Of a stretch of DNA of 64,000 nucleotides, positions 53,939 through 64,000 are shown one piece after another. Within the stretch, counting starts at the first letter, position 1, and every line of letters begins with the position of its first letter. Position numbers and translations under genes: made by a program. A model generated the notes under the pieces. The model was not told the origin of the DNA. It saw nothing but the letters and a program-made list of their open reading frames with translations, and did not search any database. Origin of the DNA: Lysobacter sp. cf310 (lineage in GTDB: Bacteria > Pseudomonadota > Gammaproteobacteria > Xanthomonadales > Xanthomonadaceae); the NCBI RefSeq assembly GCF_900114355.1, contig NZ_FOSS01000004.1, forward strand, positions 460,238 through 524,237, read 5' to 3'.

Positions 53939-55561
53939 TTACCGCTCCGTATCGTGTCGGACGAGGCTGGCCGCGGCCTCGCGCAGCTGTTCCCAGTCCA
54001 GCCCGTAGCGCCCCAGGTATTTGCGCAGGCGGTCGGCGTCGTTGGTGCTGGCGCGCTGGCTGCGCGAGACCGCGAACAGCTCGCGTCCGGCCTGCGACAG
54101 CGATTTCGCGCGTGCGCACACGCGCGCCACGTCTTCCAGTTGCACGCGGTCGAAGCGGTCCAACTCGTCCCAGCGCTGGCCCAGCAGGGCCTGCAGCGGC
54201 GACAGCGGCCGGCCCGAACGCCACAGCCGGCGCAGGCGCTCGATTTCCTCTTCGACTTGCGCGGTCTGGATGCGCCCGGCGTTGGCCAGGGTCGCCATGC
54301 GCATCACCGAGGCGCCCAGGTCGCGGAAGTTGCCGCTCCAGGCGGCCTCGGCGCTGGTGGCGTAGCGCAGGTAGCGCTCGCGCGCCTCGCGGTTGAAGGT
54401 CACGCGCTGGTGCTGCTCGCGCGACCAGCGTTCGAGCTCGAAATCCAGATTCGGCTCGATGTCCTCGGCGCGCTCGGCCAGGCCGGGCAGGCGGTAGGTC
54501 CACAGGTTCAGGCGCGCCAGCAGGTCGTCGCGGAAACGGCCCTGCTGCACCGCCTCGTGCAGGTCGCGGTTGGTGCCGGCGATCAGCTGGAAGTCGCTTT
54601 CGACCTCCTTGTCGCTGCCCACCGGCAGAAAGCGCTTCTCTTCCAGCGCGCGCAGCAGCATCGCCTGTTCGTCCAGGCCCAGCTCGCCGATCTCGTCCAG
54701 GAACAGCAGGCCGCGATGGGCCGAGCGCAGCAGGCCGGCGCGGTCGCCGGCCGCGCCGGTATAGGCGCCTTTGACGTGGCCGAACAGCGAGCTCATCGCG
54801 CCGTCGCCGCGCAGGGTCGCGCAGTTGACCTCGACGAACTGGCCGGGCAGCTGGTGCTTGAGCTTCTTCAGCTCGAACACGCGCTTGGCCAGCTGGCTCT
54901 TGCCGGCGCCGGTCGGGCCCATCAGCAGCATCGGCGCGCGCGAGCGCGTGGCCACGGTTTCGATCTGCTCGATCATGCGGTTGAAGGCGGCGTTGCGGGT
55001 GGCGATGCCGCTCTTGAGCAGGTCGCGGTCGTGCAGCTGTTGTTGCTGGAAGCGCTGCGCGATCAGGTCGTAGCGCGACAGGTCCAGGTCGATCACCGCG
55101 TAGGTGCCCGGATCGGCGCCGCCCTGCTTGCGCGGCGGCGAGGTCTGCAGCAGGCGGCCTGGGAAGTGCCGGCTCTCGGTCAGCAGGAACCAGCAGATCT
55201 GGCTGACGTGGGTGCCGGTGGTGATGTGGACGTAGTAGTCCTCTTCCTCCGGCTTGAACTCGTAGCCGGCCAGGAAATCGTGCAGCGCCGCGTACACGCC
55301 TTCGAAGTCCCAGGGGTCGGCCAGATAGGTGTCGTGGATGCGGACTTGCGTCTCCGGCGAGGCCTGGCCCAGGTCCTCGCGCACGGTCGCGGCGAGCTTG
55401 CCGTAGCGGCGCTGGTCCAGCAGCAGTTCCAGGCGGTCGAGCAGGAAGTCCTGGTGCATGCCCAGCGACACCGTCGGCCGCCATTTCTCCCAGCGCCCGG
55501 GCCCGGTACCACTGTCCAGCGTGGTGCCGAGCATGCCGATCACGACCTGGCGCTTGCGCAT
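53939..55561 (-). CDS. rtcR: RNA-repair transcriptional activator RtcR
   Basis: 540 residues. The N-terminal 180 residues are the CARF-type sensor (VVIGMLGTTLDSG, HDTYLADPWDFEGVY, YYVHITTGTHVSQICWFLL). The AAA+ domain has Walker A GPTGAGKS, sigma-54 contact loop GAYTGA (Tyr for the usual Phe) and Walker B LLFLDEIGE. A C-terminal helix-turn-helix region includes SLSQAGRELFAVSRSQR. RNA-end ligands are thought to release the CARF repression. I prefer the ATG at 55561, 6 bases after AGGA; an ATG at 55567 directly abuts AGGA. TATATT (minus, 55594-55589) is its -10 candidate. It diverges from rtcBA. Confidence 0.96.
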   Translation of the reverse strand: MRKRQVVIGMLGTTLDSGTGPGRWEKWRPTVSLGMHQDFLLDRLELLLDQRRYGKLAATVREDLGQASPETQVRIHDTYLADPWDFEGVYAALHDFLAGYEFKPEEEDYYVHITTGTHVSQICWFLLTESRHFPGRLLQTSPPRKQGGADPGTYAVIDLDLSRYDLIAQRFQQQQLHDRDLLKSGIATRNAAFNRMIEQIETVATRSRAPMLLMGPTGAGKSQLAKRVFELKKLKHQLPGQFVEVNCATLRGDGAMSSLFGHVKGAYTGAAGDRAGLLRSAHRGLLFLDEIGELGLDEQAMLLRALEEKRFLPVGSDKEVESDFQLIAGTNRDLHEAVQQGRFRDDLLARLNLWTYRLPGLAERAEDIEPNLDFELERWSREQHQRVTFNREARERYLRYATSAEAAWSGNFRDLGASVMRMATLANAGRIQTAQVEEEIERLRRLWRSGRPLSPLQALLGQRWDELDRFDRVQLEDVARVCARAKSLSQAGRELFAVSRSQRASTNDADRLRKYLGRYGLDWEQLREAAASLVRHDTER

Positions 55562-55648
55562 ATCCATTCCTATAAGAGACGCGCCGAGAATATACGAAAT
55601 TCAGATGGCTACCGGATTCCATCCGCCCAGATATCGAAAATAGTCCTT

Positions 55649-55667
55649 CAATATCAATTGGATATCG
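55649..55667. promoter_or_regulatory. candidate RtcR upstream activating site
   Basis: CAATATC-AATTG-GATATCG is an inverted repeat with 6 of 7 matching arm bases, 15 bases before the rtcB sigma-54 element. Another GATATCG lies at 55630-55636, 31 bases (three turns) from the one at 55661. Confidence 0.5.
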
Positions 55668-55681
55668 CGTCGGCGCGAAGT

Positions 55682-55697
55682 TGGCATGGCGATTGCT
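55682..55697 (+). promoter_or_regulatory. sigma-54 promoter of rtcBA
   Basis: TGGCATGGCGATTGCT fits TGGCAC-N5-TTGC with one change. Transcription should begin near 55708. Its location opposite rtcR, a sigma-54 activator gene, supports it. Confidence 0.85.
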
Positions 55698-55708
55698 CTA
55701 GTACCTGA

Positions 55709-55813
55709 GCACCCGGCGGATTCCGGCGGGTGCGAGCAGGCAGCGGCGCCTGGCTGGCAATGGGGCCAGCCGGGCCGGCCGGAACGGCGCGCCAAGGCGG
55801 CGGCCACCGGCCC
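55709..55813 (+). ncRNA. structured 5' leader of rtcBA mRNA
   Basis: The predicted 147-base leader holds three consecutive hairpins: GCACCCG (55709) with CGGGTGC (55727), GGCTGGC (55752) with GCCAGCC (55765), and GGGCCGG (55772) with CCGGCCC (55807). The first starts at the expected 5' end of the transcript. I see no Y-RNA or tRNA-like fold. It could be a regulatory leader or stability element; a separate RNA product is not shown. Confidence 0.4.
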
Positions 55814-55854
55814 GGCGCCACGGCGCGGTACCACCAACGAATAGAGTGAAGGCC

Positions 55855-57081
55855 ATGAGCACCCAGAATTACGACGTCATCCAGGAGCCCGGCTCCGCCC
55901 CGATCAAGCTGTGGACGCGCGGCGTGCCGCTGGAGGACGAGGCGCGCCAGCAGTTGCAGAACATCGCCAAGCTGCCCTTCATCCACCGCTGGATCGCGGT
56001 GATGCCGGACGTGCATCTGGGCAAGGGCGCGACCGTGGGCTCGGTGGTGCCGACCATCGGCGCGATCGTGCCGGCCGCGGTCGGCGTCGACATCGGCTGC
56101 GGCATGATCGCCGCGCGCACCAGCCTGATCGCGAGCGACCTGCCGGACGATCTGGCCGGCCTGCGCAGCGCGATCGAGCGCGCGGTGCCGCACGGCCGCA
56201 CCGCCGGCCGCGGCGTGCGCGACAAGGGCGCCTGGCAGAACCCGCCCGAGCGCGCGATCGAGGGCTGGTCGCAGCTGGTCGCCGATTTCCAGCGCATCTG
56301 CGAGCGCCACCCGCGCCTGAAGAACACCAACAACCTCAACCATCTGGGAACCCTGGGCACCGGCAACCATTTCGTCGAGGTCTGTCTGGACGAGGAGCAG
56401 CGTGTGTGGTTCATGCTGCACTCCGGCTCGCGCGGCGTCGGCAACGCGATCGGCACCCACTTCATCGAGCTGGCCAAGCAGGACATGCGCCGGTGGATGA
56501 TCAACCTGCCCGATCAGGACCTGGCGTACCTGCCCGAAGGCAGCGAGCATTACGCGGACTACGTGTTCGCGGTCGACTGGGCGCAGCGTTACGCGCGCAT
56601 CAACCGCGAGATCATGATGCAGCACGTGGTCGCGGCCGCGCGTCAGGTGATCGCCAAGCCTTTCGAGGCCGCGGCCGAGGCGGTGAACTGCCACCACAAC
56701 TACGTCAACCGCGAGCAGCACTTCGGCAAGGACGTGTTCGTGACCCGCAAGGGCGCGGTCAGCGCGCGCAAGGGCGAGTTGGGCATCATCCCCGGCAGCA
56801 TGGGCGCGAAGAGCTTCATCGTGCGCGGCCTGGGCAATGCCGACAGCTTCCATAGCTGCAGCCATGGCGCGGGCCGGGTGATGAGCCGTACCCAGGCGCG
56901 CAAGCTGATCAGCGTGGCCGATCACGTCAAAGCGACCGCGCACGTGGAATGCCGCAAGGACGCGGAGGTGGTCGACGAGTCGCCGGCCGCGTACAAGCCG
57001 ATCGAAGCCGTGATGGCCGCGCAGAGCGACCTGGTCGAGATCGTGCATACGCTGCGTCAGGTGGTGTGCGTCAAGGGTTGA
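55855..57081 (+). CDS. rtcB: RNA-splicing ligase RtcB
   Basis: 408 residues from the ATG at 55855; the GTG at 55846 is upstream of the AAGG ribosome site's reach. RtcB joins 2',3'-cyclic phosphate or 3'-phosphate ends to 5'-OH ends with GTP and manganese. Cys82 in GVDIGCGM is a metal ligand, HLGTLGTGNHFVEV and LHSGSRGVG are metal/GTP loops, and His337 in CSHGAGRVMSR is the guanylated residue, at the same number as in the E. coli protein. The length matches the E. coli type. rtcA follows in the same transcript. Confidence 0.97.
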   Translation: MSTQNYDVIQEPGSAPIKLWTRGVPLEDEARQQLQNIAKLPFIHRWIAVMPDVHLGKGATVGSVVPTIGAIVPAAVGVDIGCGMIAARTSLIASDLPDDLAGLRSAIERAVPHGRTAGRGVRDKGAWQNPPERAIEGWSQLVADFQRICERHPRLKNTNNLNHLGTLGTGNHFVEVCLDEEQRVWFMLHSGSRGVGNAIGTHFIELAKQDMRRWMINLPDQDLAYLPEGSEHYADYVFAVDWAQRYARINREIMMQHVVAAARQVIAKPFEAAAEAVNCHHNYVNREQHFGKDVFVTRKGAVSARKGELGIIPGSMGAKSFIVRGLGNADSFHSCSHGAGRVMSRTQARKLISVADHVKATAHVECRKDAEVVDESPAAYKPIEAVMAAQSDLVEIVHTLRQVVCVKG

Positions 57082-57119
57082 GCGCGTCGCCCACGGGCGA
57101 CACGGTATTTACATGGAAA

Positions 57120-57141
57120 CGGACGGGGCGGGCCCCGTCCG
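57120..57141 (+). other. intergenic hairpin between rtcB and rtcA
   Basis: A 9-bp perfect stem (57120-57128 with 57133-57141) and a CGGG loop lie 38 bases after the rtcB stop, with no T run. It may modulate the rtcB:rtcA ratio by attenuation or RNA processing. Confidence 0.5.
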
Positions 57142-57162
57142 CATCGTTATTCGGAATTGGCA

Positions 57163-58182
57163 ATGGACATGATCGAACTGGACGGCTCGGCGGGCGGCGG
57201 GCAACTGCTGCGCACCGCCTTGAGCCTGAGCCTATGCACGGGCATCGGCTTCACCATGCAGCACATTCGCGCCCAGCGTTCGCGCCCCGGCCTGATGCGC
57301 CAGCACCTCACCGCCGTCAACGCGGCCGCGACCGTCGGCCGCGCCTTCGTGCACGGCGTCGACCTGGGCGCGACCCGCCTGCGCTTCGAGCCGGGCCAGG
57401 TCGTGCCGGGCGACTATCGCTTCGCCACCGGCACCGCCGGCTCGACCACGCTGGTGCTGCAGACGGTGTTGCCCGCGCTGTGGGCTTGCGACGCGCCCTC
57501 GCAACTGCGGCTGGAGGGCGGTACCCACAATCCGCTCGCGCCCAGCGCCGACTTCATCGCCGACAGCTACCTGCCGGCCCTGCGCAAGATCGGCGTGGAC
57601 GCATCGCTGCGCCTGGAGCGCCACGGCTTCTACCCGGCCGGCGGCGGCGTGCTGCACGCCACGGTCCAGCCCGGCGCGCGCCTGCAGCGCTGCGTATTCG
57701 ATGCGCGCGGCGAGCGCGAGTCGGTGCGCGCGACCGCGCTGCTGTCGGGGCTATCGGCCGCTATCGGCCGCCGCGAGCTGGACGTGGTGGGCGAGCGTCT
57801 GGGCCTGGGCGAGAGCGAGCTGGACCTGCACCAGGTGCGTCCGGCGATCGGCCCGGGCAACGCCTTGAGCGTGCAGGTGCGCCACGCCGCGCACTGCGAG
57901 ACCTTCACCGGTCACGGCGAGCGCGGCGTGCTGGCCGAGCAGATCGCGCGCAAGCTCGCCGACGAGGTCCGGGTCTATCTGGATTCGCCGGCCTGTGTGA
58001 GCGAGCACCTGAGCGATCAGTTGCTGCTGCCGATGGCCCTGGCCGGCGGCGGCGCGTTCACCACCACCACGATCAGCGAGCACCTGAGCAGCAACGCGCG
58101 CCTGATCGAGAAGTTCCTGCCGGTGGAAATCGACTGGCAGGCGCTGGGGCCGGATCACTGGCAGGTCGCGGTAAGCGCCTAG
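57163..58182 (+). CDS. rtcA: RNA 3'-terminal phosphate cyclase
   Basis: 339 residues from the ATG at 57163. RtcA converts RNA 3'-phosphate ends to 2',3'-cyclic phosphates with ATP through an adenylated histidine. ELDGSAGGGQLLRTALSLSL is the family opening and GTHNPLAPSADFI an internal motif. The C-terminal region DQLLLPMALAGGGAFTTTTISEHLSSN includes the catalytic-histidine segment (EHLSSN). It ends the rtcBA unit. GGA lies 8 bases before the start. Confidence 0.96.
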   Translation: MDMIELDGSAGGGQLLRTALSLSLCTGIGFTMQHIRAQRSRPGLMRQHLTAVNAAATVGRAFVHGVDLGATRLRFEPGQVVPGDYRFATGTAGSTTLVLQTVLPALWACDAPSQLRLEGGTHNPLAPSADFIADSYLPALRKIGVDASLRLERHGFYPAGGGVLHATVQPGARLQRCVFDARGERESVRATALLSGLSAAIGRRELDVVGERLGLGESELDLHQVRPAIGPGNALSVQVRHAAHCETFTGHGERGVLAEQIARKLADEVRVYLDSPACVSEHLSDQLLLPMALAGGGAFTTTTISEHLSSNARLIEKFLPVEIDWQALGPDHWQVAVSA

Positions 58183-58259: not shown

Positions 58260-59783
58260 TCACCCCATCGACAGCGCCGGACTCGGCGCTGTCGATGCGC
58301 GTGCGACCGGCTCTCCCTGCGGCCGACGCAGCACCACCCACAGGCACAGGCCCAGCGCGACGAACTGGCTGAAGCTGGACAGCGCCAGACGGCCCATCAG
58401 TTCGGGCAGGGGCATGCCGCCGAACGGCAGCACCGCGCTCAGCGCGAGGTAGGCGATGGCCAGCGCGACGATGCGCGGCGGCTGCAGGCGGCTGCCTGCG
58501 GCGACCAGCAGCCACAGCCAGATCGGCGCGAACAGGCCGTTGTGGTCGGGCACGAAGGGGCTGCGGTAGGCGGCCAGGGCCAGCAGCGCCAGCCAGGTCG
58601 AGACCAGTTCCAGCCGCGACATTCTCGACGCCCGGCGCGCGGCGAAGATCGCCAGCGCGAACACCGCCAGCGTCCAGACCCAGGACACCGCCTTCTCCAC
58701 CGCCGGCGTCATGCCGCCCACGCCCAGCAGCTCCAGCTTCAGGGTCAGGCCGGGCACCGAATCGTTGATCGCCACCACCGGTTCCAGTCCGTCCAGCCAC
58801 AGGAAGGCCCAGGACTCGTTGCTGAGGATGCGCGGCGCCTGGAACTGGAAGAAGGCCTCGAACGGCGCCGTACCCAGCCAGAGCATCGCGATCACGCTGT
58901 ACAGCGCGGCGAACGCGATCGTCCACGCCGCCTCGCGCCAGCGCCGTGCGGCCAGCAGGTACAGGCCGAGCAGACCGGGGAACAGCTTGAACACGGCGAA
59001 GCCGAGCAGGGCGCCGCCGGCGATCGGGCGGTCGCGCCAGAACAGCATCATCGCCAGCAGCGACATCGCGATCGCGGCGATCTGGAAATTGCCCAGCTGC
59101 AGGGTCAGCAGCACCGGCGTGCTCAGCCACAGCGCCGGCATCAGCAGAGCGACGCGGCGCCCGGCGGCGCCGCCGATCCAGCGCCCGAGCACGAACACGC
59201 TGGCGGCCAGCACCGCGCCCTCGATCGCGAACCACAGCGCGCGCAGCTCGATGAAGCCGTCGCTCACCGCCAGGCCGGCGCGCGGCAGTATCAGGAACTG
59301 CGGCAGGTAGAGGAAGTCGTCGAGCTTGAAGCGGCCTTCCATGCCGGCGTAGTGCTCGGGGTCGTAGAGGTTGGGCACGCCCTGCGCGGCCAGGCCGGCG
59401 GCCTTCCACATGCCGGAGAAGCAGTTGTGGCGCACGTAGAACTCGTCGAACCAGTAGGCCGAGGCCTGCGCCTGCGCGGGGTCGAGCATGAACAAGGCGA
59501 CGCCGGCGGTGCGCGCGATCGCGGCCAGCGCGATCAGCAGCCACAGCGCGCTCCAGATCGGATGCGCGCGGCGCAGTCCGTCCCATTCGGCGGGCAGCCG
59601 GCGCGCCAGCCAGGGCGTGGCGAAGGCCGCCAGGGCCAGCGCGATCGCCAGGGCGACGCTGGGCGCGAACGCGGTCGGCAGATACGCGCCCACCGCCACC
59701 GCCGGCAGGGTCGCCAGCAGCAGGCTCAGCAGGGCGGCGACGACCCAGCGTTCGCTGGAGATCCGGTGCGCGGCGAGGTTCAT
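58260..59783 (-). CDS. GT87-like (DUF2029) polytopic glycosyltransferase
   Basis: 507 residues from the ATG at 59783. About ten membrane spans, with the family region AVFKLFPGLLGLYLLAARRWREAA, which resembles the K-x-x-P block of DUF2029/GT87 polyprenol-phosphate-mannose transferases. A long periplasmic loop (residues 85-145) carries DEFYVRHNCFSGMWKAAG, where the acidic DE pair could be catalytic. It is the last gene of the minus-strand cluster, 49 bases after the HAD gene. It should use a polyprenyl-phosphate sugar donor on the periplasmic side; the acceptor is unknown. Confidence 0.8.
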   Translation of the reverse strand: MNLAAHRISSERWVVAALLSLLLATLPAVAVGAYLPTAFAPSVALAIALALAAFATPWLARRLPAEWDGLRRAHPIWSALWLLIALAAIARTAGVALFMLDPAQAQASAYWFDEFYVRHNCFSGMWKAAGLAAQGVPNLYDPEHYAGMEGRFKLDDFLYLPQFLILPRAGLAVSDGFIELRALWFAIEGAVLAASVFVLGRWIGGAAGRRVALLMPALWLSTPVLLTLQLGNFQIAAIAMSLLAMMLFWRDRPIAGGALLGFAVFKLFPGLLGLYLLAARRWREAAWTIAFAALYSVIAMLWLGTAPFEAFFQFQAPRILSNESWAFLWLDGLEPVVAINDSVPGLTLKLELLGVGGMTPAVEKAVSWVWTLAVFALAIFAARRASRMSRLELVSTWLALLALAAYRSPFVPDHNGLFAPIWLWLLVAAGSRLQPPRIVALAIAYLALSAVLPFGGMPLPELMGRLALSSFSQFVALGLCLWVVLRRPQGEPVARASTAPSPALSMG

Positions 59784-59832
59784 GCGGTCTGGCTCCGAAG
59801 GACGGTGCGACGCGGGCGACGGCGGGCGGCGT

Positions 59833-60597
59833 TCACTGCGCGGCCCAGCCTTCGACCTTGCCCGAGAACACGTAGCGGCTGAGTTCCTCGAAGTCGTCGA
59901 ACACCAGGTCCGGCGCCGACTCGCGCGCATGGCCGTTGTGGGCGCGGTCGACGCGCAGCAGGGTGGTGATGCCGAAGCGGCGCGCGCCGGCGATGTCGCT
60001 GGCCGGGTCGTCGCCGATCATCCAGATGCGCTCCGGATCGATGCCGAGCTTGTCGATCGCCAGCTGGAACGGCGCCTCCTGCGGCTTGTCGGCGCCGGCC
60101 TCCTCGGAGGTCACCACGTAGTCGAAGCAATCGTCCAGGCCGAAGTAGATGATCTTGCGGAATTGGATCTGCGAGGTGAGGTCGGTGATGATCGCCGTGC
60201 CGATGCCGCGGCTGCGCAGCGCCATCAGGAACTCGCGCACGCCCGGGAACAGCTCGCAGTGGGCGAGGAAGGTGCGCCAGTAGGTCTGTTCCAGATCCAG
60301 CGTGATCACCAGCTGGGTCTTGCGCCCCAGCAGTTCGATGCCGCGCTGGAAGTACAGCAGGCGGCTGTGCGAACTGGCGGTGCGGCCCAGGCGCTGCTTC
60401 ACCTCCAGCCGCGCCTGCGAGAAGGCCTGGCGCACGTCGGCGACCTCGCAGCCCAGCAGGCGCACCGCTTTCTCCTCGGCGGCCACGGTCGCGCAGGCGT
60501 GCGGATGGCCGTAGGCGTAGAGGGTGTTGTCGGTGTCGAAGATGATCGCCTGCGGCGCGCGCAGGGCGGTGTCCGCGGTGTGGATGTTCAGGCTCAT
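59833..60597 (-). CDS. HAD family hydrolase
   Basis: 254 residues. Motif I is IIFDTDNT (nucleophile Asp21, acid/base Asp23), motif II the Thr of IITDLT, motif III the Lys in GADKPQEAPF, and motif IV IGDDPASDIAGARRFG. A helical cap lies between motifs I and II. It is most likely a phosphatase of sugar or nucleotide phosphates. Its ATG overlaps the stop of the kinase-fusion gene (ATGA), which ties it to that protein. Confidence 0.92.
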   Translation of the reverse strand: MSLNIHTADTALRAPQAIIFDTDNTLYAYGHPHACATVAAEEKAVRLLGCEVADVRQAFSQARLEVKQRLGRTASSHSRLLYFQRGIELLGRKTQLVITLDLEQTYWRTFLAHCELFPGVREFLMALRSRGIGTAIITDLTSQIQFRKIIYFGLDDCFDYVVTSEEAGADKPQEAPFQLAIDKLGIDPERIWMIGDDPASDIAGARRFGITTLLRVDRAHNGHARESAPDLVFDDFEELSRYVFSGKVEGWAAQ

Positions 60598-62690
60598 TGG
60601 ATTCGGTTCTTCAGGGCTTCTTCGGTGTGCACCAGGACCAGCAACTGCATGATCCCGCTCATGCCGTCCTCCCACTGGGGACGGATGTCCAACATCTCCT
60701 GCAGGCCGGGCACCAGACTGCGCGCGGCCAGGGCGATGTCCTCGGCGACCACGTCGCCTTCGATCTCCATTTCGACCTCGCCCGACTCGTCGGCCAGCTG
60801 CACGTCCAGGTGCAGGCCGCACACGCCGATCAGGATTCGCGCCACGCGCTCGTGGTAGGTGCCGTTGCGGATCAGCGCGACCAGCTTCAGGCGCACCTGG
60901 TCGGGCGCGATGCCGCGCTCGAGCTGCTGCGGATTGACCGGCTGCAGGCGCAGCACCAGGCTCGCCACCGCCTTCTGCGGGTGGATGTAGCGCTGCGAAT
61001 CCGGCGCGCGCCGCTCCAGCGAGCCGGTGACCGCGGCCAGGTCGTGGCCGCGCTGATGCACGTCCCGATGGATCTTCCAGGCCCGGCGCAGCGATTCGTC
61101 CACGTCCAGGAACACGCTGACGTCGTAGCGCCGGCGCAGGCGCGGGAAGTGCAGCGCGTGCAGGCCCGAGGCGATGATCACATCGTTCTTGGCCAGCAGG
61201 GTCGGCTTCTCGAAACGTCCGGCGCTGTGGTCGTAGCGGCGGCAGACGATGGCCTTGCCGTCCATCAGCGCCAGCACGTCGTTGCCGAAGCGCTGCAGGT
61301 CGTTGGCGCGCGGATTGAGGTGGGTCAGGCCCTTCCACATCGGCGCGTAGCGGTCCCAGATGTGGTAATCGTCGCCGGACACGTGCACCACCGAGTGGTC
61401 GCCGAACACGCCGGCCAAGGCGCGGCTCAGGGTGTCCTTGCCCGAGCCCGAATCGCCGGCGATGCCCAGCGCCAGCGGCTTCTGGGCGATGCGGTAGTAG
61501 TCGTTGCGGCCGACGCGCTCGCGCAGCATCTGCACGATCAGCACCAGGCCCGAGGCCACCACCAGGGTCATCCACAGCGAATGGATATGCGGGGTGATGC
61601 GCGCGGCCACCGTCGCGATCGCCGGTGCCGGGTCCCAGCCCAGCGACGGTACGGCGGCGCCGCTGGAAATGAACACGTGCATCGCGATCAGCAACAGCGA
61701 GAAGCCGCCGGCCAGCACGCGCGCGCTGCGGTCGCCCTGCAACTGGTGCGCGACCAGGAACGGCACCAGCCACAGGTACCAGCCCGGCGGCGCCGGCGTG
61801 CCCAGCACCACCAGGAAGAACGAGAGCCCGGTGCTGGCGATCAGCAGCTCGAAGCTGATGCGGCGGAAACGCCAGGCCGCGTAGGCCGCCAGCAGGTACA
61901 GGGTCGGCGTCAGATAGAGCTTGAGTTCATCGCCCAGCGGCAGGGCCAGGTCGAACACGCGCCCGAATTCGCGCGAGCCGAAGACCATGCTCACGAAGCC
62001 GGACGACGCCAGCCAGGGCAGCGTCAGCAGCGTCGCCAGCACCGCGCAGGCCAGCGCGAACGGCGCCAGCATCGAGCGCAGGCGCTTGTTGCGCCACAAG
62101 TAGATGCCGATGAAGGGCGCGGCCAGGCCCATGCTGAGCTTGGCCGCCAGCGCCAGGCCCAGCGTGGCGCCGGAGGCGACCGGGCGATAGCGGCGGATCA
62201 ACAGCAGCGACAGCAGCAGCAAGGCGATCGGCACGATGTCGGTCTGGCCGTTCCAATAGGTCACGAACAGCACGATCGGCGACCACCAGTACAGCCACAG
62301 CAGCATGCGCGGCTGCTCGGTCGGCAGCAGGCGCCGCAACAGCAGCAGGCAGGCCAGGTCGGCGCCGAGCAGGCCCAGGCGGAAGCCGATGCCGGTGTAG
62401 GCGCCGCTGCCGGTGGCGGCGTCGATCAGCCAGCCCAGCACGCTGCCCGGCGCGTGCGCGAGCAGCATCACCGGGCCGTAGGGATAGGCCAGCGGCGTGC
62501 CGCCGGCGGCGAGGAAGCTCGACCACGGATCCAGGCTGGGGAATCGGATCGCGTGGTCCAGGAACGGCAGGAACCACTGCTGCTGGATCTTCGGCACCAG
62601 CAGCACGATCAGCAGCGCGCGCAGCAACAGGCCGGCGCGGAACTCCCAGGTCCGCAGCATCGGGTCTCGCCACAGCCGCGCCGCGCTCAT
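60594..62690 (-). CDS. fusion: polytopic GT-C-like membrane protein + uridine-kinase-like domain
   Basis: 698 residues. Residues 1-395 have about ten membrane spans with a GT-C look (TPLAYPYGPVMLLAHAPGS, LYWWSPIVLFVTYWNGQTDI, then LGLALAAKLSMGLAAPFIGI). Residues 400-610 are a P-loop kinase of the uridine kinase/phosphoribulokinase group, with Walker A GIAGDSGSGKDTL (about 408-420), HVSGDDYHIWDRY and VIIASGLHALHFPRLRRRYD. The last 85 residues are acidic and possibly regulatory. The combination suggests phosphorylation of a lipid-linked or sugar substrate at the membrane. The stop overlaps the HAD start and the start overlaps the GDPD-like stop. Confidence 0.85.
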   Translation of the reverse strand: MSAARLWRDPMLRTWEFRAGLLLRALLIVLLVPKIQQQWFLPFLDHAIRFPSLDPWSSFLAAGGTPLAYPYGPVMLLAHAPGSVLGWLIDAATGSGAYTGIGFRLGLLGADLACLLLLRRLLPTEQPRMLLWLYWWSPIVLFVTYWNGQTDIVPIALLLLSLLLIRRYRPVASGATLGLALAAKLSMGLAAPFIGIYLWRNKRLRSMLAPFALACAVLATLLTLPWLASSGFVSMVFGSREFGRVFDLALPLGDELKLYLTPTLYLLAAYAAWRFRRISFELLIASTGLSFFLVVLGTPAPPGWYLWLVPFLVAHQLQGDRSARVLAGGFSLLLIAMHVFISSGAAVPSLGWDPAPAIATVAARITPHIHSLWMTLVVASGLVLIVQMLRERVGRNDYYRIAQKPLALGIAGDSGSGKDTLSRALAGVFGDHSVVHVSGDDYHIWDRYAPMWKGLTHLNPRANDLQRFGNDVLALMDGKAIVCRRYDHSAGRFEKPTLLAKNDVIIASGLHALHFPRLRRRYDVSVFLDVDESLRRAWKIHRDVHQRGHDLAAVTGSLERRAPDSQRYIHPQKAVASLVLRLQPVNPQQLERGIAPDQVRLKLVALIRNGTYHERVARILIGVCGLHLDVQLADESGEVEMEIEGDVVAEDIALAARSLVPGLQEMLDIRPQWEDGMSGIMQLLVLVHTEEALKNRIQ

Positions 62691-63274
62691 CGCCAAAGCT
62701 CGGTCTCCTTGGTGCAGACCGCGTCCACGGCGATGCCTTCGCGCGCGAGCAGCTCGCGCATTTCGGCGATGCCCTGGGCGGCGTCGCGGCCCTGCAGTTC
62801 CGGCGAAACCAGACACAGGCGGAAGCCGGCCGCGCGCAGGCGCTCGGCCTGGGCGCGATCCAGCGGAAAGCGGGTGAAGCAGTCCACCCAGATCCAGTTC
62901 ACCCGCCCGGCCAACGCCAGCGCGGTGTCGATCGATTCGTACTCCGACACCCGCACCGCGCAGCGCGCTTCGCCGCGCGCGGCGGTGCGGACCAGGAACG
63001 GGAAGGACTGGTCCAGGAAAAACCAGTCCTGGATGCCGCGCTCGCGCATCAGCGCGATCAGGCGGTCCTCCAGGCCTTCTTCCTTGACGTTGAGGATCAG
63101 CAGGCGATGGCGGTAATCGTCCAGCCAGTCCTCGAACTCCTCGCCGTCGGCGAAGGCGTCGTGGTGAACGATGATGGTCTCGCCGCGGCTGCGCAGATCG
63201 AGCTCGATCCCGAACTCCGGCGAGGTCGCGCGCAGTTCCGCGCGGGTGTTGCGGCGGTGGCGGACGATGATCAT
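62687..63274 (-). CDS. GDPD/PI-PLC-like phosphodiesterase domain protein
   Basis: 195 residues from the ATG at 63274; the open frame upstream is not similar to anything. IIVRHRRNT, then GIELDLRSRGETIIVHHD, copies the glycerophosphodiester phosphodiesterase pattern (His-Arg...Glu-x-Asp...His-Asp). The later WIWVDCFTRFPLD and CLVSPELQGRD fit a TIM barrel's closing strands. The protein is short for a full GDPD (usually 240 or more), so the barrel may be trimmed. Start and stop overlap the neighbours by 4 bases each. Confidence 0.8.
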   Translation of the reverse strand: MIIVRHRRNTRAELRATSPEFGIELDLRSRGETIIVHHDAFADGEEFEDWLDDYRHRLLILNVKEEGLEDRLIALMRERGIQDWFFLDQSFPFLVRTAARGEARCAVRVSEYESIDTALALAGRVNWIWVDCFTRFPLDRAQAERLRAAGFRLCLVSPELQGRDAAQGIAEMRELLAREGIAVDAVCTKETELWR

Positions 63275-63990
63275 GCGGGGTGCGAGAGGTCTTTGCGCAG
63301 GCGCAGGCTGAAATCCAAGGTGCGGCGGATGAAGCGCGCCTTGGCGCGCCAGTTCACGTTCCAGTGCGAGCTGCCGTAGGCGCGTTCGCCGAAGCGGACC
63401 CGGAAGCGGCGCACTTGCAGGCCGCTGCGACGGGCCTGGTAGTAGGCGTACAGGTCCAGCGAGAAATCGTGCGGCGGCGCCTGCCAGCGTTCGAAGAAGG
63501 CACGCGCGAACAGGGTCGGCTGGGCGTTGATGTCCCACAGCCGGCGTCGCAGCAGCAGGGTCTCGAACAGCGACATGCCGATGGTGAAGACCACGTCCGC
63601 CAGCGGCCGGCCGTAGCGGCGGCCTTTGACGAACAGCGTGCTCGGGTCGCGGTCGTCGAACAGGTCCAGGCCTTCCAGCGCATCGGCCGGATCGGTCTGC
63701 ATGTCGGCGTGGGTCCAGCCCACGATCAGGCCGCGCGCGGCGCGCAGGCCGGCGAGGATGCCGTAGCCATAGCCCTGGTTGCGTTCCACGCGCACGCTGC
63801 GGATGCGCTCGGCGCCCTGCAGCAGCGCGGCCAGCACCGCCGGGGTGTCGTCGGTGGAGCCGTTGTCGACCAGGATCGCTTCCACGTCCTCGCGCACGAA
63901 GGTCTGGTGCAGGCGCGCCACCAGCAACGGCAGGTTGCGGGCTTCGTTGTAGCAGGGGATCACCAGGGACAGGCGCAGGGAGGTGGTCAC
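63271..63990 (-). CDS. family 2 glycosyltransferase (polyprenyl-phosphate type)
   Basis: 239 residues from a GTG at 63990. LSLVIPCYNEARNLPLLVARL and ILVDNGSTDDTPAVL form the nucleotide-sugar site and GWTHADMQTDP is the variant DxD region of the dolichol-phosphate-mannose-synthase group. No C-terminal spans are present. It probably loads a sugar on polyprenyl phosphate, which would feed the GT-C-like partners downstream. Only 10 bases precede the GTG and no ribosome site is seen; GTGA could overlap an upstream stop in the operon's style, or the true start may lie outside the window. Confidence 0.88.
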   Translation of the reverse strand: MTTSLRLSLVIPCYNEARNLPLLVARLHQTFVREDVEAILVDNGSTDDTPAVLAALLQGAERIRSVRVERNQGYGYGILAGLRAARGLIVGWTHADMQTDPADALEGLDLFDDRDPSTLFVKGRRYGRPLADVVFTIGMSLFETLLLRRRLWDINAQPTLFARAFFERWQAPPHDFSLDLYAYYQARRSGLQVRRFRVRFGERAYGSSHWNVNWRAKARFIRRTLDFSLRLRKDLSHPA

Positions 63991-64000
63991 GGCGTTTCGA

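Follow-up and report, generated by a model that had tools for sequence, protein, structure and literature searches.

Introduction

Periplasmic glycosylation modules of the Gtr type consist of a GtrA flippase, a GtrB-like GT2 glycosyltransferase, and a GT-C transferase, and the heptose-1,7-bisphosphate pathway comprises GmhA, HddA/HldE, GmhB, and a nucleotidyltransferase (NTase). The presence of phosphoribulokinase (PRK) is widely read as a sign of the Calvin cycle. Here, we describe an operon of Lysobacter sp. cf310 whose proteins belong to known families or are related to them. What appears to be new is the gene combination, in which a PRK-type kinase is joined to a GT-C-like domain and most hosts lack a Rubisco match. 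The operon reaches into a 64,000-nucleotide stretch of DNA (positions 460,238 to 524,237 of contig NZ_FOSS01000004.1; the whole stretch is termed the window below) and comprises eight co-directional genes, the three-gene 5' part of which extends beyond the window end. These encode, in this order, a class II aldolase, a tandem NTase, a methyltransferase, a GT2 protein, a phosphodiesterase-like protein with the fold of glycerophosphodiester phosphodiesterases (GDPDs), the membrane-kinase fusion, a HAD phosphatase, and a GT87 protein. On our best reading of these sequences, the operon would make a nucleotide-activated sugar from a pentulose phosphate, and this sugar would reach a surface glycan by way of a polyprenyl carrier. 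This soil bacterium thus appears to remodel a sugar phosphate that is familiar chiefly from carbon fixation, with a derivative going to a surface glycan.

The C-terminal 300 residues of the fusion share nine active-site residues and the fold with Calvin cycle PRKs of the class II type, but the kinase of the operon is fused to a GT-C-like membrane domain, is encoded in a genome without a Rubisco match, and scores below the NCBIfam cut-off. The Gtr-type modules have a parallel in relatives of the operon, in which GT2, GtrA-like, and GT-C-like proteins stand side by side, whereas the operon of this strain contains no GtrA-like gene (the rest of the genome was not searched for one), its GT2 protein lacks a hydrophobic segment of its own, its GT-C-like domain carries a kinase, and it brings its own precursor pathway. 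The heptose-1,7-bisphosphate pathway offers a parallel in the succession of a kinase that forms a bisphosphate, a HAD phosphatase that takes the distal phosphate, and an NTase; here, however, the kinase is PRK-type and would presumably act on a pentulose phosphate, and an aldolase is added. The haloarchaeal non-carboxylating pentose bisphosphate pathway (PMC9700705) has a counterpart in the operon in that the HAD protein is nearest to the model of the ribulose-1,5-bisphosphate (RuBP) 5-phosphatase and the class II aldolase is similar to ketose-1-phosphate aldolases. It differs in that the RuBP of the operon would come from a PRK and not from ribose-1,5-bisphosphate isomerase, and the operon has another aldolase subfamily and a glycan setting with NTase and glycosyltransferases. 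A prediction made earlier from the window alone (the original prediction) had named no pathway of this composition. In agreement with this, we found no characterized cluster of such composition in the open-access PMC literature, judged mostly by title.

Results and discussion

A PRK-type kinase domain fused to a membrane domain

The fusion gene (60594..62690, minus strand) encodes a polytopic GT-C/GT87-like membrane domain (residues 1-399; 61494..62690, minus strand) followed by a kinase domain (residues 400-698; 60594..61493, minus strand), which is of the PRK type according to its predicted fold and its active-site residues. In the C-terminal part, the Pfam family PF00485, which comprises PRKs and also uridine kinases, was matched with 124.8 bits (cut-off 22 bits). 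Among NCBIfam models, the PRK model PRK07429 reached 198.5 bits and the uridine kinase model 81.2 bits, a difference of 117 bits; PRK07429 was matched by all 12 aligned fusion members, and the best sequence matches of the kinase half in the PDB were PRKs. An AlphaFold model of the fusion was generated from 14 sequences (mean predicted local distance difference test (pLDDT) score 87.8) and compared with known structures using Foldseek. PRK structures were matched over their full length, including the C-terminal domain (about 310 columns; target-normalized template modeling score (TMt) 0.77-0.80), and the best structure match of the kinase half was the cyanobacteria-specific PRK 9qkp. Among the matches listed, no open-access literature on the cyanobacteria-specific PRKs 9qkn and 9qkp was found.

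The residues D440, H443, R447, Y486, H488, K539, R542, D543, and R547 are identical in 12 of 12 fusions, and the same nine residues are present in both annotated PRKs that were used for comparison (L078, encoded beside cbbX and rpe, and L080, encoded beside tkt) as well as in all three unannotated kinases (L025-L027). We take them to be the equivalents of D42, H45, R49, Y98, H100, K165, R168, D169, and R173 of the Rhodobacter sphaeroides PRK, which are catalytic residues or bind D-ribulose-5-phosphate (Ru5P). The neighboring DDYH motif varies and is DGYH in the Azospirillum copy. A uridine-kinase-like frame of 115 residues in L079 has Y and D at the positions of H443 and R447, which is a partial contrast. 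The lower model scores and the PRK residue set led us to reject a uridine kinase identity, and a zeta toxin identity was rejected with a match of 19.1 bits, below the cut-off. The original prediction had simply counted a kinase among the encoded proteins; the kinase is indeed present, and scores, residues, and fold now refine it to PRK-type rather than uridine-kinase-type. In a small, unrooted tree of kinase domains, the L046 fusion stood beside the comparison PRKs with weak support; as the tree is weak and unrooted, we make no statement on a single origin of the fusion. From its sequence, the domain is predicted to act on Ru5P, which we consider probable.

The Rubisco large subunit (PF00016) had no match in the genome of the strain itself. 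The 25 other fusion entries gave a similar picture, with 23 lacking a match, one having a sub-threshold match, and one having a match over the cut-off.

HAD phosphatase, aldolase, and nucleotidyltransferase

The HAD phosphatase (254 amino acids; 59833..60597, minus strand) has no hydrophobic segment. Its best model is the RuBP 5-phosphatase NF053830 with 178.3 bits, followed by the next HAD model with 112 bits, and NF053830 was matched by 12 of 12 aligned HAD members. In six genomes, the HAD protein of the cluster scored 172-190 bits with this model (6/6), and the best other HAD protein scored at most 73 bits. Of the 12 sugar phosphates offered to the enzyme behind NF053830, RuBP alone led to notable phosphate release, with ribulose-1-phosphate (Ru1P) as the product (PMC9700705). 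That the HAD protein of the operon also gives Ru1P is a prediction from sequence similarity that, in our judgment, could fall either way. Among 30 of 202 plasmid records listed in a tblastn search with the HAD protein, there was no haloarchaeal RuBP phosphatase.

The class II aldolase (344 amino acids; L009:18776-19810, outside the window and upstream of the NTase gene) matches Aldolase_II (PF00596) with 75.6 bits (cut-off 22.2 bits). E93, H107, H109, and H168 are invariant in 10 of 10 aligned members, and the E, HxH, and NHG residues presumably form the metal site. Models of RhaD (rhamnulose-1-phosphate) and FucA (fuculose-1-phosphate) were matched by all 10 members, the Ru1P aldolase model by nine, and the methylthioribulose-1-phosphate dehydratase model by eight; the substrates of all four models are ketose-1-phosphates. 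The subfamily scores are all far under their cut-offs, with the RhaD type being best. The kinase and the HAD phosphatase thus point to RuBP and Ru1P, and the aldolase points mostly to a ketose-1-phosphate. The tandem NTase (552 amino acids, two NTase domains; L009:17089-18747, outside the window and upstream of the methyltransferase gene) retains G-x-G-x-R, one aspartate, and one lysine in both halves, which we take to be the typical motif of the NTase fold.

Linkage and distribution of the genes

We compiled 19 loci with the fusion (the locus itself, three plasmids, and 15 genome contigs), 11 of which are from Lysobacter or close kin. The neighborhood search with the fusion that had been suggested along with the original prediction found the GDPD-like gene in all 19 loci, HAD and GT2 in 18 each, the NTase in 17, and the aldolase in 16. 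L041 and L036 are truncated by contig ends, and L044 has an aldolase-NTase pair elsewhere in its genome. Alpha-, gamma-, and deltaproteobacteria as well as three plasmids carry the core in several gene orders, with differing orders in Hirschia (L031), E. coli (L030), L045, and L046, so that the togetherness of the genes goes beyond the passing on of a single block.

The NTase was found in six of 398 genomes of the phylum, including the strain itself, and each of the four further genomes in which the match is full-length has the fusion and the aldolase as well. The fusion was found in 12 of 19 other genomes of the genus and in one of 16 other family members, and all seven genomes of the genus without the fusion also lacked the NTase. 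As the loci were searched with close peptide patterns and no more than two or three candidates per genome were scored across the phylum, this distribution is a lower bound; at least one genome is probably entered twice (G010 and G459). Pairwise distances of five cluster proteins were correlated over 10-12 loci with r values of 0.79-0.95, which were reached in 0 or 1 of 2000 permutations; as this comparison had no housekeeping control, vertical descent contributes to the correlation. The nearest named locus is that of Lysobacter sp. Root916, whose fusion is 98% identical.

This linkage bears on the question of whether the operon combines two unrelated functions, in which case PRK, HAD, and aldolase would form a non-carboxylating route from Ru5P to dihydroxyacetone phosphate and glycolaldehyde, and the remaining genes would serve an ordinary glycan. 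A catabolic route of this kind, with RuBP phosphatase and Ru1P aldolase, exists in halophilic archaea (PMC9700705). However, every one of the 19 loci found has the kinase joined to the membrane domain (the search favored such fusions), kinase, HAD, NTase, and GDPD-like protein co-vary, and within the genus, fusion and NTase either both occur or are both missing. We therefore regard two separate functions as very improbable.

A variant cluster in genome G073 (L060) has the tandem NTase, GT2, and GDPD-like genes without the fusion. Beside these genes, a 1293-residue protein (L060:4775-8653), found as one copy in the 398 phylum genomes, combines a clear ribulose-phosphate 3-epimerase domain (90 bits) with a ketose-bisphosphate-aldolase region (32 bits, over the Pfam cut-off); immediately upstream are genes for a methyltransferase and a HAD-IIA phosphatase. 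If a P-loop kinase match at the start of this protein is real, unrelated families would supply the same kinds of reaction around pentulose phosphates.

The cluster of a Desulfobulbus metagenome-assembled genome (MAG; L042:3403-13400) is interleaved with genes of a GHMP kinase, a small HAD protein, and a SIS-domain protein, which could represent a heptose pathway. Remote GDPD-like genes beside HAD genes, as read from annotation and profile matches, were seen on plasmids of Azospirillum, Rhizobium, Tropicibacter, Scandinavium, and Pseudomonas (L053-L055, L074, L075, L077). A tandem NTase (annotated as GT2) was seen beside them for L053-L055 only; WavE genes are present in L053, L074, and L075, and ABC exporters in L074 and L075. 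The L053-L055 cassettes (Azospirillum, Rhizobium, and Tropicibacter) are similar to the operon in having homologous GDPD-like and tandem NTase genes beside a HAD gene, but there was no match to the fusion or the aldolase in the stretches read, and the GDPD-like similarity is remote (64-84 bits).

Proteins of the glycan side

The GT2 protein (239 amino acids, GTG start; 63271..63990, minus strand) is a GT-A-type glycosyltransferase (PF00535, 78.5 bits) without a hydrophobic segment. Its NCBIfam scores are far below the cut-offs (best an ArnC-type model with 45 of 529 bits), and from its sequence it is probably a polyprenyl-phosphate sugar synthase. The separate GT87 protein (507 amino acids, polytopic; 58260..59783, minus strand) exceeds the cut-off of PF09594 with 57.8 bits, and its gene is present in 10 of the 19 fusion loci, all of Lysobacter and close kin. 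The membrane half of the fusion reached 24.2 bits with GT87, slightly below the Pfam cut-off of 25 bits; it is a helical domain in the model and has seven strong hydrophobic segments in a simple scan. The 50 structure matches listed for the fusion model include no GT-C enzyme, all of them concerning the kinase half. A GT-C identity of this half is likely. Of the two GT-C/GT87-like proteins originally predicted, the separate one is thus above the Pfam threshold, and the fused one falls just short of it.

The GDPD-like protein (195 amino acids; 62687..63274, minus strand) has no Pfam match over the cut-off and no hydrophobic segment. Its AlphaFold model (pLDDT 94.9) has the GDPD barrel, and the top Foldseek matches were bacterial GDPDs (E 3e-7, 17% identity). 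H6, R7, E24, D26, H38, D39, and K64 are invariant in 12 of 12 members, and the histidines and acidic residues among them presumably are the catalytic set.

GtrA-like matches were found in 10 of the 19 fusion loci, including the locus from which the query was taken; in eight of these, GtrA adjoins GT2 or shares a frame with it (four each). The loci with GtrA-like protein and GT2 in one open frame are all from Lysobacter (L033, L034, L038, and L039). We regard it as very likely that the end use of the operon is a lipid-linked surface glycan. The idea that the genes form a kit to make, transfer, and trim a lipid-linked glycan is in this respect probably correct, given GT2, the GT-C-like domain, GT87, and the GtrA-like genes in eight of the 19 loci. 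The trimming role is unsupported, since the HAD protein resembles RuBP phosphatases and looks precursor-making, and since both the HAD and the GDPD-like protein lack a hydrophobic segment.

Proposed pathway and alternatives

In the pathway that we propose, the PRK-type domain would phosphorylate Ru5P to RuBP, and the HAD phosphatase would remove the 5-phosphate to give Ru1P, which is able to cyclise. The aldolase would act on the ketose-1-phosphate, either by cleavage or by reconfiguration via retro-aldol reaction and re-addition. The tandem NTase would activate the resulting sugar phosphate. GT2 would then load the sugar onto polyprenyl phosphate, a GtrA-like protein would flip the polyprenyl-linked sugar, and its transfer at the outer face would fall to the fused GT-C-like domain, in Lysobacter also to the separate GT87; the methyltransferase may decorate the sugar. 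The GDPD-like protein would hydrolyze a phosphodiester, perhaps in the recycling or proof-reading of polyprenyl-phosphate-sugar, but its role is a guess.

The observed basis of this proposal consists of the genes present, their co-occurrence and co-variation, the conserved residues, and two predicted folds. Every substrate in it is a prediction from sequence. We see the core, in which kinase and HAD would form a ketose-1-phosphate destined for the glycan, as only a little less probable than its opposite, and the whole chain with its steps as written is a distinctly more tentative proposal. The furthest-reaching form, in which RuBP would be made without Rubisco as a glycan intermediate, Ru1P would come from a membrane-bound PRK-glycosyltransferase fusion together with the RuBP 5-phosphatase-like HAD protein, and this Ru1P would give rise to a new class of nucleotide-activated ketopentose that reaches the cell surface via polyprenyl, is rather unlikely. 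If true, RuBP would gain a biosynthetic use, and PRK-type kinases without Rubisco could mislead genome-based predictions of autotrophy. We know of no described activated donor for the ketopentose residues of bacterial glycans, and none was found by title in the open-access literature; the operon might show how such rare residues are activated.

Several observations weigh against this pathway. The kinase, with its 198.5 bits, stays below the PRK07429 cut-off of 236 bits (209 of 326 positions matched), which is why we label it PRK-type, and the HAD phosphatase stays below the NF053830 cut-off (178.3 versus 330 bits; none of the six genomes exceeded it), so that it resembles the RuBP 5-phosphatase and is not filed as a member. 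As both enzymes are below curated cut-offs, their substrates could have shifted. The histidines 457, 511, and 549, which are invariant in the fusions, are replaced in both L078 and L080, and the specificity of the kinase may therefore differ; His 511 and 549 are also histidines in the alignment of the Synechococcus PRK. The aldolase is nearer to the RhaD type than to Ru1P aldolase, and seven of the 10 aldolases also matched 3-oxo-tetronate-4-phosphate decarboxylase, whose substrate is not a ketose-1-phosphate. The linkage data have weaknesses as well, beyond the contribution of vertical descent. The fusion itself was the query that retrieved the fusion loci, GT2 is missing from its place in L043, and no aldolase was found in the genome of the Desulfobulbus MAG (L042, G453). 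In addition, the HAD protein and aldolase of the deltaproteobacterial L046 are only weakly similar (42-43 bits), and in G115 the NTase is apart from the fusion and the aldolase, on separate contigs. The entry with a Rubisco-family match over the cut-off is Roseomonas (G454), and the P-loop kinase match of the L060 protein is weak and below cut-offs. Finally, a GT2 reaction requires a leaving group at the anomeric position, which a nucleoside diphosphate (NDP) on C1 of a ketose does not provide. The conversion of a ketose-1-phosphate into a GT2 donor is therefore the weak step, which led us to consider two alternatives.

In the first, an aldose phosphate, for example, ribose-5-phosphate or arabinose-5-phosphate, would be phosphorylated by the kinase at its anomeric C1, the HAD protein would take the distal phosphate, the NTase would form an NDP-pentofuranose, and GT2 would form a polyprenyl-phosphate-pentose, with the aldolase in a side role. 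This would provide GT2 with a normal anomeric donor, and the order of kinase, bisphosphate, phosphatase, and NTase is that of the known heptose-1,7-bisphosphate route, to which the Desulfobulbus cluster with its GHMP kinase, small HAD, and SIS-domain genes adds a parallel if their presumed heptose roles are correct. On the other hand, the kinase retains nine PRK active-site residues, most of the named substrates of the matched aldolase models are ketose-1-phosphates, and the conserved aldolase would be left unexplained. An aldose substrate is, in our view, unlikely.

In the second alternative, Ru1P or an epimer would be converted to an NDP-ketose and moved together with its phosphate, resulting in a phosphopentulose-substituted glycan whose diesters the GDPD-like protein would hydrolyze. 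A ketose phosphate at C1 and a conserved protein of the GDPD fold fit this product, as does the joint presence of GDPD-like, HAD, and tandem NTase genes on the Azospirillum, Rhizobium, and Tropicibacter plasmids (L053-L055). However, the operon contains no transferase family known to us for such a transfer, GT2 and GT-C enzymes transfer glycosyl groups, and the GDPD-like protein, having no hydrophobic segment, probably would not meet an exported product. We consider a phosphodiester product improbable, and the polyprenyl-linked sugar derived from a pentulose phosphate remains our preferred product.

Operon structure and genomic context

The five genes at 58260-63990 are located where the original prediction had placed them, all on the minus strand, and of its 4-base overlaps, the three junctions GT2/GDPD, GDPD/fusion, and fusion/HAD are exactly 4 bp, with GT87 being separated from HAD by a gap of 49 bp. 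A further 4-bp overlap is present at the methyltransferase/GT2 junction. The GDPD/fusion junction is also -4 in nine of 18 relative loci with the same order and ranges from -23 to +59 in the other nine, with gene starts in the relatives chosen by a script. From the overlaps, we infer that the genes are translated jointly. The original prediction had also advised a look at the upstream genes beyond 64 kb, and this look yielded the aldolase, the tandem NTase, and the SAM methyltransferase (268 amino acids, minus strand; 3' end at 63987..64000, continuing outside the window; whole gene L009:16225-17031), all of them absent from the first reading. These three genes and the type of the kinase are the informative part of the operon.

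A divergent nonribosomal peptide synthetase (NRPS) gene bounds the operon upstream, where NRPS-like genes directly adjoin it (L010:51-6891; the Pfam check covers the first gene). Downstream, RNA-repair genes are located at 53939-58182 of the window, with rtcR on the minus strand and rtcB and rtcA on the plus strand, the latter two being convergent with the glycan operon. They were rejected as part of the system, being RNA-repair genes with a convergent rtcA/rtcB pair and rtcR.

Azospirillum, Hirschia, and E. coli each have a plasmid copy of the cluster, and all three plasmids are predicted to be non-mobilizable. The patchy distribution and the plasmid copies suggest that the operon has probably spread horizontally. 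A phage origin was rejected, as matches of the kinase domain were short and occurred in four of 50,697 phage records. The E. coli plasmid cluster was found in two of 5426 E. coli genomes, from human stool and from a bullfrog. On the E. coli IncR plasmid (L030:6022-14984), the cluster is accompanied by a 586-residue protein without a Pfam match, and IS26 is located about 1.6 kb downstream of the cluster.

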